A stretch of 64,000 nt of DNA from an uncultured Anaeromyxobacter sp. (GTDB taxonomy: Bacteria > Myxococcota > Myxococcia > Myxococcales > Anaeromyxobacteraceae): positions 29,497-93,496 of the forward strand of contig CAIQRS010000142.1 of NCBI GenBank assembly GCA_903874275.1, in the 5' to 3' direction. Below the pieces are notes generated by a model. That model was given only the letters and a program-made list of their open reading frames with translations, made no database searches and had not been told where the DNA came from. The position numbers were made by a program, and so were the translations under genes. This document shows, one piece after another, positions 27,220 through 33,697 of this stretch. The first letter of the stretch is position 1; every line of letters starts with the position of its first letter.

Positions 27220-27854
27220 CTCGATGCCCTCACGATGCGATGGGATGCCAGTTCCGCCTTCACCTGGGGGACCCTCTTCCCGCCCACCAGCGCGAAGGTC
27301 TCGATGCGGACCGGCCCGACGCCCGGCGCGTAGGTGGTCTCCAGGATCACCTCGGCGTCGTCGCCGGCGCGGTTGCGCGCGCGCACCAGGACGCATCCCT
27401 CGAAGGTGCCCGCCGGCACCGAGGCGGTGAGGCCGGTGGCGGCGATCTGGTAGCGCTCGGTGGAGGTCTCGCTCACGATGGAGATCCAGGAGCGGTCGGC
27501 CTCGAACGGGGCGCAGAGGATGCGGCGGACCCGGTCCTGGATGCAGCCGTGGGCGACCTTGAGCGCCCCCCGCCCGTCGTCCACGAAGTAGCCCTCGGCG
27601 TCGCGCGACACGATGCGGACGGTCCGACGCTTCGGCGCGCCATCGCCGGCGACCGGGGAGCTGTCCACCCAGGTCCACTCGTTGCCCACCGCGAGAGGGA
27701 AGTAGGCGGTCGGGTCCGGGGCGGCCGGCGGCGGGGCCGGCGCCTCCGCGGGCGCGTGGGCGCAGGCCGCGAGCGCGGCGCAGAGGATCAGTGCGGGTCT
27801 CCGGATCACGCCGCGCATCTTACCCTCAAAGCCGTCCCCGCACGCGTGGTTCAC
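27216..27854 (-). CDS. putative lipoprotein, function unknown
   Basis: Lipobox-like ILCAALAACAHAP; YFPLAVGNEWTWVDS region; 4-bp overlaps with both neighbouring genes. Confidence 0.65.
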   Translation of the reverse strand: MNHACGDGFEGKMRGVIRRPALILCAALAACAHAPAEAPAPPPAAPDPTAYFPLAVGNEWTWVDSSPVAGDGAPKRRTVRIVSRDAEGYFVDDGRGALKVAHGCIQDRVRRILCAPFEADRSWISIVSETSTERYQIAATGLTASVPAGTFEGCVLVRARNRAGDDAEVILETTYAPGVGPVRIETFALVGGKRVPQVKAELASHRIVRASR

Positions 27855-28741
27855 CTCGACCCGCCCCCCACCTTGCCGGCCGCGCGCCGCCGCCGGGCGT
27901 CACGGAGCGCGTCCCGTGCGGCCTGGGCGACGAACGGGTCCGGGTGGCCGGAGGACATCGTCTCGAGGTAGGCCTCCGCCTCGTCGCCGCCGATGTCCCC
28001 CACGGCCCTGACCATCTGCGCCACGAAGGGCCCCTCCCGGCGGCGGGAGAGCTCGACGATGGGGCCGACCGCCCTGGGGTCCCCGATCTGCGCGAGCGCG
28101 CCGACGGCGCGGCTCGCGATCGTCGGGTCGGGGTCCTGGAGCCGGGCCAGCAGCCCGGGAACCGCGGCCGGATTCTTCCGGTCGGCGAGGACGCCCACCG
28201 CGAGATCCCGCGTCCGGGGATCGGCCGACTCCAGGTCGCGGATGACCTCCGCGTCCGGCTTGCGGGCCTCGGCGAGGGCCAGCGCGAGGCCGCTCGCCGC
28301 CCGCGCCGCGGTGGACAGGATGGCGCGGCGGAAGGCGCTCCCCGCCGGCTCCCCGGGGACGAGGGCCTCGGCGCCGCGCACCCGGTCGGCGAGCGTGTCG
28401 GCGCCGTCACCGGGCTTCACCTCCAGCCGGAGGAGGACCTCCGCCTGGGTTCCTGCCCCCTTGGCCACGAGTCGTGCGTCCTCGAGCGAGACCGAGCCTC
28501 TGCAGCGCAACGCCCCCTTCGGTGGCTCGGCGGCAGGAACCTCGAACCCGGGGGTGCGCGCGAAGGCGTCGATGGCGATGCGCCGGAGTTCGTCCCTGCC
28601 GATCCCCACCGCCGCCATCCGGGAGGGGCCCGGCCCCTCCTCGACGGTGACACCGGTCACCACGCAGGGCGGGGGCCCGCCCCGGCAACCAGCCGAGGCG
28701 AGCACCAGGATGCCGATGAGGAGCCCTGCAGCCGTTCGCAT
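27851..28741 (-). CDS. HEAT-repeat lipoprotein
   Basis: Lipobox LVLASAGC; repeats DPRTRDLAVGVLADRKNPAAVPGLLARLQDPDPTIASRAVGALAQIGDPRAVGPIVEL. Confidence 0.8.
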   Translation of the reverse strand: MRTAAGLLIGILVLASAGCRGGPPPCVVTGVTVEEGPGPSRMAAVGIGRDELRRIAIDAFARTPGFEVPAAEPPKGALRCRGSVSLEDARLVAKGAGTQAEVLLRLEVKPGDGADTLADRVRGAEALVPGEPAGSAFRRAILSTAARAASGLALALAEARKPDAEVIRDLESADPRTRDLAVGVLADRKNPAAVPGLLARLQDPDPTIASRAVGALAQIGDPRAVGPIVELSRRREGPFVAQMVRAVGDIGGDEAEAYLETMSSGHPDPFVAQAARDALRDARRRRAAGKVGGGSR

Positions 28742-28768: not shown

Positions 28769-30640
28769 TCAGGTCCCCTCGCCCGAACCCCCGGGCGGAG
28801 CATCTCCGGAAGGAGGCGGGGGAGGCTGCGGTGCGCTTCCGTCGCCACCCTGCGGCGCCGCCGTGCCGTCCGGCCGGCGTTCCCCACGCCCCCTGCCACC
28901 ACGACGCCTGCGACGGCGCCGCCTGCGGCGCGCCTCTCCGGCGGCGCCCTCCTTGGGAGCCTCGCCCGGCGCGCCCTCGGAGGCCTGGGCCTCCGGCGTG
29001 CCGTCGTCGTCGCCCTCGTCGTCGCCGTCCCCGCCGTCATCGGCGTCGTCGTCCTCGGGGAGGGGCTCCGTCCGGGCCGTCTCGGCCGCGGGCAGGAGCG
29101 CGAGCGGCCTGGCTGGCGCGGCAGGCTCCTCGCCGGCGGGGCGCTCCTCGGTGGTGGGGGCCGGGTAGACCGCGATGGCTGCGATCTCGACGACCTCGCC
29201 GGTCGCGGCGGCCACCGGCTCCGGGCGCGGGCGGCGCTCCTCGCGCCGCTCGCGGTCCCTGCCTCGGTCGCGGTCCCGGTCGCGATCGCGGCCGCGCGCC
29301 TGACCCGGAACCTGATCCGCCCCACGCTCCGGAGCGGCGGACTCGTCCCGCTCCTCGCGCCCATCCCGGCGATCACGCTCCTCGCGGCGCGCCTTGCGGG
29401 CCGTCTCCTCGCGCTGGGCGGTCTCCGCCGCCGCGGCGAGGAACTCCTCGTCCGCCTCGGGGATGGAGACGATGCGGCAACCGATGCCGGCGTCGGCGAA
29501 GGCCTCGGCGAACGCCTCGCCGGCGATGAGCAGCACGGGCATCTGGCCGGCCGCGGAGGCCTCTCCGCGGGCATCCCGCTGGGCCTCCCCCGAGCTCACC
29601 AGCACGCCGATCTGGGCGCCGTAGTGACCGAGGTCGCGCCGGACGTCGGCGACGTCCCGGCGGCTGATGTCGCCCCCGGTGCGCAGGACGCGGACGGCGT
29701 GGCGAACCTCCACGAGCCCCATGCGCTTGCGCCCGGTGAAGACCACGCTCTCCCGGCCGCGCTTCGCGACCTTGACTTCGCGCAGGCCGTCCTTCTCGAG
29801 CAACCGCTCGACCAGGTGCTCGATGGTCGGGCCATCGCACTCGCGCAGGCGGCGCCGGAGCGCGGCCAGCGCCGAGCGGCGCATCTCGGCGGGGCTCGCC
29901 AGCGCGCGCGCGGCAACCACCGGCGCCGGCCGATCTCCCGGCTCGGGCGCCGCACCCAGGACGATGCTCTCCCCGTCGATGGAGAAGAGCGACTTCCGGC
30001 CAGCGGACTCCCTGCGCCGGTTGTCCTCGAGCAGCGCGGCGGCCAGCGAGGCGGTGTCCCGCACGAAGGCGTCGGGCATGAGCATTCGCTCCGCCCCCAG
30101 CGAGGCCAGTTCACGAAGGGTGAGCGGCCGGTCGGCTCCCGACAGGATCTCGTAGGCCACCTCGGCGGGCGGCGGGTAGCGACGCTTCTTCTCGTCGATC
30201 TCCTCGCGCCTCCGTCCCCGTCCCGCTTCGCGCCCCGCATCCCGTCCCGGGCCCCGCGAGAGTTCGCGGGTCGGGATGGGATGGCGTTCGCGCGGGCGGT
30301 AGGCCGGCTCGTTGGCCGGGGGCAGCTCGACCAGGTTCTCGAGCCCCAGGGGGTCCTCGGGCAGGCCCCACTCTTCCAGGGCGAAGGTCGCGTGCTGGAT
30401 CACGACGATGGCCCGATCAGACCGCGGCAACTTGCAGTGCGCGGCCAGCTGGTCGGCCATCGTGTCCTCGGGAATCTTCCCGACGTGGTCGAGAAGGCTC
30501 TCGTGGATCGCGATCTCGGCGATCTTCCGGAAGTGGAGTGGCTTGCCTTCCCGCTTCAGCACCTCGACGGCTGCTTCGGTGAAGGTCATGAAAGTCTCAG
30601 GATTCCTTGAAGTTTTCGCGGCGGATGTCGCCGCGGGCAA
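28769..30640 (-). CDS. HARE-HTH/winged-helix protein with Mrr-like restriction-endonuclease-fold region and disordered Arg-rich tail
   Basis: MTFTEAAVEVLKREGKPLHFRKIAEIAIHESLL and second PPAEVAYEILSGADRPLTLRELASLGAERML resemble HARE-HTH; GPTIEHLVERLLEKDGLREVKVAKRGRESVVFTGRKRMGLVEVRHAVRVLRTGG is Mrr-like; poly-R tail; likely start is M at about 30589. Confidence 0.7.
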   Translation of the reverse strand: MPAATSAAKTSRNPETFMTFTEAAVEVLKREGKPLHFRKIAEIAIHESLLDHVGKIPEDTMADQLAAHCKLPRSDRAIVVIQHATFALEEWGLPEDPLGLENLVELPPANEPAYRPRERHPIPTRELSRGPGRDAGREAGRGRRREEIDEKKRRYPPPAEVAYEILSGADRPLTLRELASLGAERMLMPDAFVRDTASLAAALLEDNRRRESAGRKSLFSIDGESIVLGAAPEPGDRPAPVVAARALASPAEMRRSALAALRRRLRECDGPTIEHLVERLLEKDGLREVKVAKRGRESVVFTGRKRMGLVEVRHAVRVLRTGGDISRRDVADVRRDLGHYGAQIGVLVSSGEAQRDARGEASAAGQMPVLLIAGEAFAEAFADAGIGCRIVSIPEADEEFLAAAAETAQREETARKARREERDRRDGREERDESAAPERGADQVPGQARGRDRDRDRDRGRDRERREERRPRPEPVAAATGEVVEIAAIAVYPAPTTEERPAGEEPAAPARPLALLPAAETARTEPLPEDDDADDGGDGDDEGDDDGTPEAQASEGAPGEAPKEGAAGEARRRRRRRRRRGGRGRGERRPDGTAAPQGGDGSAPQPPPPPSGDAPPGGSGEGT

Positions 30641-30729
30641 TCGCTCATCTTGTGTCGAGGTCGGCCCCCTGTCAACGTGGAATTCCTCCGAATCACCGGA
30701 GATTTACGTCACGTGGAGGGTTGCGGCCG

Positions 30730-32958
30730 GTGATTCGCATCCGGATCGGCGTGGGCTGGGCCTCCGACCCCGAGGTCAGGGCCGGCCTGCGGGCCGGGTC
30801 CTCGGAACCCCGCCGGGCCGCCATCCGGGCCATCGTGGACGTCGTCGCCATCGAGGTCGAAGGGGTGGACATCGCCGCCGGGAGGACCGAGGGGCCCGTC
30901 GCCGAGGGTGTGCTCGGGATGCTCCGGGCCATCGACCGGCTGGCCGCGGGAGAGGAGCATGCCTCGGTCCCCTTCGAGGACGGGGCGGTCGAGCTTCTCC
31001 TGCACCGCCGCGGAGGGGTCGCGCTGCTCTCGGTGGCCACCCTTTCACGGCCGGCCAGGCTGCTCGCCCACGACGTGGAGGTGGACCTTCCCCGGCTCGC
31101 CGAGGCGGCGCGGGCGGCTGCGACGAGCTTCTGCGACCGCGTGGCGGAGATCGCGCCCTCGGCCCGCGCCCTTCCCGAGCTGCGCCGCCTCCTTCGCGCC
31201 GCCGCCCGGACGCCGCCGACGCCCTCTCCGGGCCCCGTCGTCCTTCCGGCGACTCGGGCCAGGCGGACCCACCGCCGCCGGCGGGACGCGGCCTGCAGCT
31301 TCGAGATCAACGACGAGGCGGGGCGCCTCTCCACCTGGCGCGGCCGGGGAGCCGACCTGGACTCCCTCCTCGTTCGCGGGCGCGTCTCCTTCCGCTCCCC
31401 GGCCGGGGACGAGTTCCTGTCCGTCGCCGGAGCGCCGTACCTGACCTTCCGGGACCTCTGCGCCGCGGCCGCCCGGATCGCCGCGTCGCCGGGGGCTCCG
31501 GTCGCCTTCGACGTGGCCCGCCCCGGCCGCAACGCCACCTCCCGGGTGACCGTCGCCGACGGCGCCGTCACGGTCGTGGGAGCCGATCCGGTCCGGTGTG
31601 GCTCCCTGGATCTCGCCCGGGCCATCCTGGAGGGGGCCGCCGACTTCTGCGCCGTGGTCCGGCGCCGCGCTCCAGGCCAGGCCGGAAACACCCTGCTCTC
31701 CGACCTGGAGACCTCGGCCGCCGCCACCCTCGCCCACGTCCTGGAGGCGCGCGAGGGCGACCGGCTTTTCGCCTCCCGGCGGCGGGTCAGGACCGGCCGG
31801 GAGGAGCGCCCCTCCCCCCGCCCCCTGGGTCCGGGCAGCCTGCGACGGATCTCGTTCAGGAGCATCGCCTCCGCCGACGTCGGGCCGCCGGCCGGGGTCG
31901 GGCTCCTCCTCCGGGGCGACGTCCTCGTCGCCTGCGGCCGGGAGGAGACGCTCGCGCTCGACGCAGGGCGCGGCACCGTCCTCTGGAGGGCCCCCGGCGC
32001 CTTCCAGGGCGCGGCCGACGACCGCGCGTGCGCGCTGCTGCGCGGCGCTACCCTCGAGGCGCGCGACGTCGGGAGCGGGTCGGTGGTATGGACCCGGCCG
32101 GCGCCCCCAGAGGCCGACGCCCGCAGCGTCCTGTCCCTCCCACCTGGCGGGCGCCTGTTCGTCGCCGCTGGACCCTCCGTCTCGGCACTCGACGCGTCGC
32201 GGGGAGACGCCCTCTGGACCTTCCTGTCCCCCGGGGCGTCGCGCCTCTCCCTTCTCCCGCTCGGGCCCCTCCTCGTCGTGGCGTCCGACACCGGGATGGT
32301 CCACGCCCTCGACCCGGCCGGCCGGGTGGCCTGGCGCCTGCGGGGGGCCGGACCTCTCGCCGCTCCGCTGACGGGGACGGGGCGCTCCTGTCTCCTCGCC
32401 TTCCTCACCCCCACCGGCGCGACCCTGGCCTCGGTGGACCCGTCCACGGGCGCGCGCCTCTTCGAGGCCTCCCTCGACTTCACCCCCGTAGGCCCGCCGC
32501 TCCGGTTCGCAGGCCGCATCGCCCTGGCCGGGAGCGTCGCGGGCGACGCCGTCATCGCCGCGCTCGAGGAGGACGGCTCGCCGGCGTGGGTCGAGCCATC
32601 CCCCACCGGCGGCGCGCCCTCGCTCGCAGCCTGCGGGGCCGGGCTGCTCGCCAAGGGGGCCGACGGGACCTGCGGCGCGCTGGACCGGGACGGCAGGACG
32701 CTCTGGCTGCGATCCTGCGCGGGGAGGCCGGTTCCTCCCGGAAACGTCCCGCCGGTCGCTGCGCGCGGCGTCGTCGTCGCCGCGGCGGAGGAGGTCGAGA
32801 TCCTCGACGTCTCGACCGGCGCGCCGATCGGGCGCGTCCCCGCACACGCCCCGGCGCGGCTCGTGGTGGACGGGGACCTGACCACCTGGGCGCTCGACGC
32901 GGACGGGCTGCTCACCGGCGCCCGCGTCCGCGGCCACCTCTCCGTGGTCGAACGCTAG
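30730..32958 (+). CDS. PQQ-like beta-propeller repeat protein with unique N-terminal domain
   Basis: GTG at 30730; repeats LALDAGRGTVLWRAPGAFQG, SALDASRGDALWTF, HALDPAGRVAWRLRGAGPLAAP, GALDRDGRTLWLRS. Confidence 0.7.
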   Translation: MIRIRIGVGWASDPEVRAGLRAGSSEPRRAAIRAIVDVVAIEVEGVDIAAGRTEGPVAEGVLGMLRAIDRLAAGEEHASVPFEDGAVELLLHRRGGVALLSVATLSRPARLLAHDVEVDLPRLAEAARAAATSFCDRVAEIAPSARALPELRRLLRAAARTPPTPSPGPVVLPATRARRTHRRRRDAACSFEINDEAGRLSTWRGRGADLDSLLVRGRVSFRSPAGDEFLSVAGAPYLTFRDLCAAAARIAASPGAPVAFDVARPGRNATSRVTVADGAVTVVGADPVRCGSLDLARAILEGAADFCAVVRRRAPGQAGNTLLSDLETSAAATLAHVLEAREGDRLFASRRRVRTGREERPSPRPLGPGSLRRISFRSIASADVGPPAGVGLLLRGDVLVACGREETLALDAGRGTVLWRAPGAFQGAADDRACALLRGATLEARDVGSGSVVWTRPAPPEADARSVLSLPPGGRLFVAAGPSVSALDASRGDALWTFLSPGASRLSLLPLGPLLVVASDTGMVHALDPAGRVAWRLRGAGPLAAPLTGTGRSCLLAFLTPTGATLASVDPSTGARLFEASLDFTPVGPPLRFAGRIALAGSVAGDAVIAALEEDGSPAWVEPSPTGGAPSLAACGAGLLAKGADGTCGALDRDGRTLWLRSCAGRPVPPGNVPPVAARGVVVAAAEEVEILDVSTGAPIGRVPAHAPARLVVDGDLTTWALDADGLLTGARVRGHLSVVER

Positions 32959-32962
32959 CCGG

Positions 32963-33697
32963 TCACACCCCGAGGAACAGGCGCCGCCCGAAGTTGGCCG
33001 CCACCTTGGCCGCGAAGATGCGCTGGGCCGCGGTCTCGATGTCGTAGGGGACCCGCACGTACTCCACGCTCCGCTCCTCGGTGTCGTGCAGGACGAAGCA
33101 GGCCCGGTTGTCGCAGTCCCGGGGCTGCCCCACCGCACCCACGGTCACGACGTACTTGTAGCCGGGCCGGAGCCGGAACCTGCGCCCCGAGACCTCGATC
33201 ACCTCGCTCCCGGCCTGGAGTGCGAAGACCTTGGTGAGGTGGGAGTGGCCGATGAACGTGACCCGCGGAAGGGTGTCCACGATGGGAAGGAGCTCGGCCG
33301 CCTGCTCGCTGGCCAGGATGTAGTCGTAGGCCTCGGGATCCCGCGGGGAACCGTGGCTGAAGCCGACGTCCCCGAGCCGCGCGGCGTAGGGCAGCCCGGC
33401 GAGCCAGGCCCTGTTCTCGGGGCGGAGCACCCTGGCGGTCCAGTCGAGGGCGTGCCGGGCCGCGTCGTAGTAGAACGCGTAGTCCATGCGGGCGGTCACC
33501 GCCGCGTCGTGGTTCCCGAGGAGCGCGATCCCCACCAGCCGGCGCAGGATCTCGCAGCACTCGTTGGGGCTGGCGCCGTAGCCGACCACGTCGCCGAGCG
33601 ACACCACCATGTCCACCCGGCGCTCGGCGATCGTCCGCTCCACCTCGGTCAACGCCTCGAGGTTCGCGTGGACGTCGCTGAGGATGGCCAGGCGCAT
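32963..33697 (-). CDS. calcineurin-like metallophosphoesterase (YfcE/MJ0936-type)
   Basis: MRLAILSDVHANLEAL, SLGDVVGYGASPNEC, LLGNHDAAV, FSHGSP, FIGHSHL. Confidence 0.93.
   Translation of the reverse strand: MRLAILSDVHANLEALTEVERTIAERRVDMVVSLGDVVGYGASPNECCEILRRLVGIALLGNHDAAVTARMDYAFYYDAARHALDWTARVLRPENRAWLAGLPYAARLGDVGFSHGSPRDPEAYDYILASEQAAELLPIVDTLPRVTFIGHSHLTKVFALQAGSEVIEVSGRRFRLRPGYKYVVTVGAVGQPRDCDNRACFVLHDTEERSVEYVRVPYDIETAAQRIFAAKVAANFGRRLFLGV

Follow-up and report, generated by a model that had tools for sequence, protein, structure and literature searches.

A nuclease-dead HARE-Mrr protein retained as a single-copy core gene of the class Myxococcia

The stretch of DNA analysed (the window, 64,000 nucleotides of an uncultured Anaeromyxobacter sp.; 5.07-Mb draft genome, completeness 98.9%) harbors a minus-strand gene coding for a protein that combines two HARE-HTH-like winged helices, a Mrr/REase-fold domain devoid of its nuclease active site and a disordered charged tail. 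The folded domains are under purifying selection, and the gene belongs to the core of the class Myxococcia, in which it is inherited vertically, in single copy and within a conserved locus. The best explanation, which we regard as somewhat probable, is that a HARE-Mrr restriction enzyme was exapted, in nuclease-dead form, as a constitutive nucleic-acid-binding housekeeping protein of the nucleoid or of transcription. Both HARE-HTH fusions and inactive restriction-fold domains have precedents. We found no description in the open-access literature of a nuclease-dead HARE-Mrr protein as a near-universal core gene of a class, an earlier mention being possible, and nothing relevant in that literature on HARE-HTH in Myxococcus, Myxococcus nucleoid proteomics or Arg-rich proteins of Myxococcota.

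Gene extent, expression signals and folded domains

The gene spans positions 28769-30589 of the minus strand, from an ATG at 30589 to the stop codon. A sequence-only reading of the window had proposed a TTG-started ORF of 623 aa (28769-30640, minus strand); this frame exists, but its start was misplaced, the ATG lying 17 codons inside. The same start Met is found in 57 of 58 orthologs (extracted automatically from the loci, duplicates included), so the product is 606 aa long; the sole exception is L046, whose HARE part is in another frame. A sigma-70-type promoter is predicted upstream (30647-30675, minus strand), made of TTGACA (30670-30675), a 17-bp spacer and CAAGAT (30647-30652). Within the 120 bp compared upstream of the orthologs, a perfect TTGACA lies 39-114 bp 5' of the ATG in most members of families f1 (Anaeromyxobacteraceae) and f4 (mostly large genomes) and in several of f7 and others, followed in most cases by a -10-like hexamer 17-18 bp further on. 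A stricter consensus promoter scan called nothing, and the prediction thus rests on conservation; such a promoter would be consistent with housekeeping expression.

Some other features of the 5' region are worth recording. In two loci (L009 and L031) the TTGACA lies only 39-41 bp before the ATG, and transcription may start near the start codon there, giving a leaderless mRNA. In the f4 loci L039-L043 and L045, a strongly conserved 5' leader (TACGGACCTACATTTTTGTAACCGTT) is present about 20-60 bp before the ATG, between promoter and gene. Moreover, synonymous divergence in the first 85 codons (30335-30589) seems unusually low for two of the three congeners compared (pS 0.12 and 0.17, versus 0.38-0.70 in the rest of the gene), which may point to a regulatory or RNA element.

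Two regions of the protein are assigned by Pfam with scores well above the curated cut-offs, namely HARE-HTH (PF05066; residues 1-74, E 2.1e-22, 79.7 bits against 25.9) and Mrr_cat (residues 248-363, E 3.5e-13, 50.1 bits against 21), and both are matched by all 32 members of the ortholog alignment (at E<=0.1 for HARE-HTH). The AlphaFold model computed from these 32 orthologs (mean pLDDT 82.7) contains three folded units, at about residues 1-83, 141-211 and 233-370, connected by low-confidence linkers; with a pTM of only 0.41, the model does not predict how the units are arranged with respect to one another. The first unit is HARE-HTH domain 1 (residues 1-85, 30335-30589), supported by Pfam, AlphaFold and ortholog profile matches, in which M1, T2, E5, A6, L11, P17, L33, H35, G37, P40, F69 and W74 are invariant. 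It is followed by a basic linker (residues 86-140, 30170-30334; pLDDT 37-68 over residues 81 to 140) that nonetheless has invariant columns: R98, E101, R102 and P104 (residues 98-104, 30278-30298) stand out amid this low-confidence region as a candidate partner-binding peptide.

The second unit is a HARE-like winged helix (residues 141-213, 29951-30169), modeled at pLDDT about 90 over residues 141-211 with the same order of helices and strands as domain 1. Its sequence match is weaker (HARE1 against HARE2 by hhalign: E 2e-5, prob 77%, versus E 0.05-0.06 for Mrr controls). The last unit is the Mrr/REase-fold domain (residues 233-384, 29438-29893), recognized by Pfam, AlphaFold, Foldseek and hhalign, whose core is modeled at pLDDT above 90 over about residues 241-370 and has the PD-(D/E)xK superfamily fold. 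Its best Foldseek neighbors are MspJI (E 6.6e-5), FokI (4.4e-4) and AspBHI (7.5e-4), then eukaryotic RPB5 (4e-3); when PDB sequences were searched with the profile, or with HARE1 on its own, only chance matches came up. The two HARE-HTH-like segments and the Mrr/REase-like region proposed by the sequence-only reading are therefore borne out, the first segment by Pfam, the second by AlphaFold and hhalign and the Mrr region by Pfam, AlphaFold and Foldseek, and the structure prediction that it had called for shows winged-helix and REase folds in domains that are conserved.

Loss of the nuclease active site

Homology of the last domain to canonical Mrr domains is secure, since an hhalign comparison with five of them gives prob 99.5 and E 3e-23. 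All five have a GG[IV]D Asp and a QxK motif, whereas the PD-(D/E)xK site is missing from the 33 aligned sequences of our protein, where the Asp and Lys of the D...QxK signature expected of an active Mrr-type enzyme (D...(Q/E)xK) are both gone; the presence of this triad had been left as a question by the sequence-only reading. The position of the Asp is non-acidic in the Myxococcia orthologs, where KRSKEG-PL or KRGRES-VV takes the place of the motif; the strand corresponding to QxK has a sequence like VELRYAVRLL. The Lys is substituted by a hydrophobic residue in the hhalign register or by the invariant Arg296 in a manual register, and the catalytic residues are lost either way. The D and QxK are retained by two HARE-Mrr fusions found elsewhere in the phylum (L076 in genome G069 and L074 in G077; the L074 sequence has up to four wrong N-terminal residues in one alignment, A2, outside the domain motifs) and by a separate Mrr protein of the source genome itself (L079).

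The dead domain is not decaying. With respect to three congeners, dN/dS is 0.11-0.21 in the Mrr domain, 0.12-0.20 in HARE1 and 0.13-0.24 in winged helix 2, and five residues of the Mrr domain are invariant among the orthologs, three of them Arg (R277, G291, R296, R317 and A359). An inactive REase domain is also the hallmark of the Pfam family NA-iREase1 (NACHT-associated inactive restriction endonuclease), which matches 26 of the 32 orthologs at E<=0.1; however, no NACHT ATPase was found, and the protein of the window scores 20 bits against a gathering score of 27.

Distribution, descent and conserved locus

The gene is present in 42 of the 43 good genomes among 60 relatives and, in a search of the whole phylum, in 137 of the 147 genomes of the class Myxococcia (114 of the 116 good ones), the ten genomes with no match being draft assemblies of 320 contigs or more. 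There is one copy per genome, with the exception of one poor draft and of matches that are split. The source genome has no other HARE-HTH gene, and nearly all HARE-HTH matches in the phylum correspond to this one. In a maximum-likelihood tree, the multi-member families f1, f4, f6, f7 and f10 each form one group, and the number of label changes is the least possible. No relative was found in collections of viral contigs, phages and plasmids. A mobile defence gene was considered and rejected, given the single-copy core status, the monophyly of the families and the absence of viral, phage or plasmid relatives; the class-wide distribution in single copy, the conserved synteny and the lack of any sign of mobility likewise argue against an ordinary restriction enzyme.

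The locus is conserved as well. Downstream, the gene adjoins in most cases a gene coding for a HEAT-repeat protein with a lipoprotein-like N-terminus by eye (27851-28741, minus strand). On the other side, a divergent gene (30730-32958, plus strand) codes for a 742-aa protein with a BamB-like PQQ propeller (predicted at pLDDT 87), and lies at the same divergent place in 18 of the 23 loci compared. Its uncharacterised N-terminal region of about 340 residues is seemingly duplicated, and no obvious signal peptide was seen by eye. A metallophosphoesterase gene follows (32963-33697, minus strand), and PfkB and metallophosphoesterase genes are found farther upstream in several families, including in the sister order. 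In genome G073, which belongs to another class, a HARE gene follows the same metallophosphoesterase on the same strand, at a distance of about 20 bp; this gene has diverged, and its Mrr-like region is weak (E 1.4e-6). From this one genome, it seems that both the association with the locus and the active-site loss may be older than the class Myxococcia. The same frame of the G073 gene (L082) also encodes, further on, a LipB-like domain (resembling lipoate ligases by eye), for a total of 883 aa, which represents either a fusion or an assembly error.

Charged tail, rival readings and possible function

The closest known systems are the HARE-Mrr restriction fusions mentioned above, which share an N-terminal HARE-HTH and a homologous Mrr_cat. 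They retain GG[IV]D...QxK and are sporadic, whereas the Myxococcia protein has lost both residues, is a class-wide core component and carries in addition a charged tail and another winged helix, also HARE-like. Under the favored explanation, the ancestor would have been a modification-dependent HARE-Mrr restriction endonuclease whose active site was lost before the radiation of the class Myxococcia, the protein being kept as a single-copy housekeeping gene. We infer that it would be expressed constitutively and bind DNA or RNA as part of the nucleoid or of the transcription apparatus. DNA binding, or docking on a protein partner, would fall to HARE domain 1 at the N-terminus and to the second winged helix, whereas the dead Mrr domain would grip the backbone through its Arg-rich face and leave it uncut. 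The tail, which is flexible and has the acidic run and Arg-Gly block in two families only, might tune affinity or tether RNA or DNA. Winged helices and REase folds can also serve as protein-protein modules, and the persistent neighbors (PQQ propeller, HEAT-repeat protein and metallophosphoesterase) do not point to transcription.

A more specific alternative is a delta-like partner of RNA polymerase, which we consider unlikely. The RNA polymerase delta subunit (RpoE) likewise has a HARE-HTH at the extreme N-terminus followed by linkers and a disordered charged region, the source genome harbors no other HARE gene, and the invariant W74 aligns with a delta Trp adjoining the residues that cross-link to the beta' jaw. 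Moreover, Foldseek retrieves the delta subunit of S. aureus (8x6g_E, E 0.26, prob 0.93) as well as the RPB5 subunit, in an alignment of about 150 columns, and the delta family model TIGR04567 weakly matches 7 of the 32 orthologs (best E 3e-4). However, the score of the protein against this model (16.3 bits) is far below the equivalog cut-off of 42, and membership of the delta family was rejected on this ground, a delta-like function being kept as a rival reading. HARE1 is also much closer to the HARE of a restriction fusion (62 bits) than to that of delta (7 bits), and the protein differs from RpoE by an extra winged helix, by a dead nuclease that makes up its bulk and is missing from delta, and by a tail of mixed charge and not polyanionic.

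This tail (residues 385-606, 28772-29437) is composed of 18% R, 17% A, 14% E, 13% G, 12% P and 10% D. It contains an RD/RE-repeat segment (RDRDRDRDRGRDRERREERRPRPE, residues 434-457, 29219-29290), an acidic stretch (residues 510-529, 29003-29062; 13 D/E out of 20) and an Arg block, R10-GGRGRG (residues 554-569, 28883-28930), all on the minus strand. The sequence-only reading had rightly listed the RD repeats, the acidic stretch and the ten Arg, and its general interpretation holds in part, for the domains and the disordered Arg-rich tail; the nucleic-acid binding that it had also suggested is plausible, whereas condensate behaviour would be a conjecture, and core status and synteny were beyond its reach. 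Families f1 and f4 have in common an acidic run, then 7-11 Arg and a block like GGRGRG, with 9-11 Arg in f1 and RKRRRRRRRGRRGRG, or R10GGRGG in L057, in f4. The codons of the Arg run are mixed (CGC, CGG, CGT and AGG) in f1, which argues for selection on the protein and, together with the recurrence in f1 and f4, rules out an artefact of a DNA repeat. A RIO-kinase-like protein (by eye) of the same genome (L137, G000:C177:2-1108) has a similar R9GG C-terminal tail, and we therefore make no claim that the Arg tail is unique in the genome.

The R10-GGRGRG block resembles RG-rich RNA-binding tails. This likeness, together with the conserved acidic-plus-Arg layout and the RIO-kinase-like protein, would fit an RNA- or ribosome-associated scaffold whose Arg-Gly tail would bind RNA or promote condensates, a reading to which we likewise give a low probability. 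Against it, the sister-order orthologs stop at 396-404 aa, before any Arg tail, f10 has no tail, and f2, f5, f6, f7 and f8 have lost the Arg block or keep a reduced one, whereas the folded core is universal; the Arg tail cannot therefore represent the core function.

The dead enzyme might instead still recognize modified bases in DNA, regulating or marking the sites, which appears quite improbable. MspJI and AspBHI, to which its REase-fold domain is structurally similar, are modification-dependent enzymes. Both are active nucleases with SRA-like readers, whereas the Myxococcia protein pairs HARE-HTH domains with a dead nuclease. Recognition of modified bases by HARE-HTH has been proposed (PMC10853773), with doubt on which base (PMC11037411); for HARE this is a prediction, for which neither paper cites experimental proof, and no methyltransferase was seen among the conserved annotated neighbors. 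Finally, a type IV restriction enzyme that is still active through an atypical catalytic site, suggested by the matches to Mrr_cat and to the PADLOC profile PDC-S02, is highly improbable and was rejected on motif loss and distribution, both catalytic residues being missing in all orthologs of a gene that occurs once per genome, descends vertically and is not found in mobile elements.

Returning to the exaptation of a dead HARE-Mrr nuclease, its boldest form would be a Myxococcia-wide chromatin or transcription factor, acting as a partner of RNA polymerase or an organiser of the nucleoid and essential or nearly so, which we put forward only as a tentative possibility. If true, a bacterial restriction enzyme would have become a housekeeping factor through a transition that can be placed on the tree, in parallel with the presence of HARE-HTH in the RNA polymerase delta subunit and in chromatin proteins, and the myxobacteria would gain a lineage-specific and probably important nucleic-acid-binding protein.
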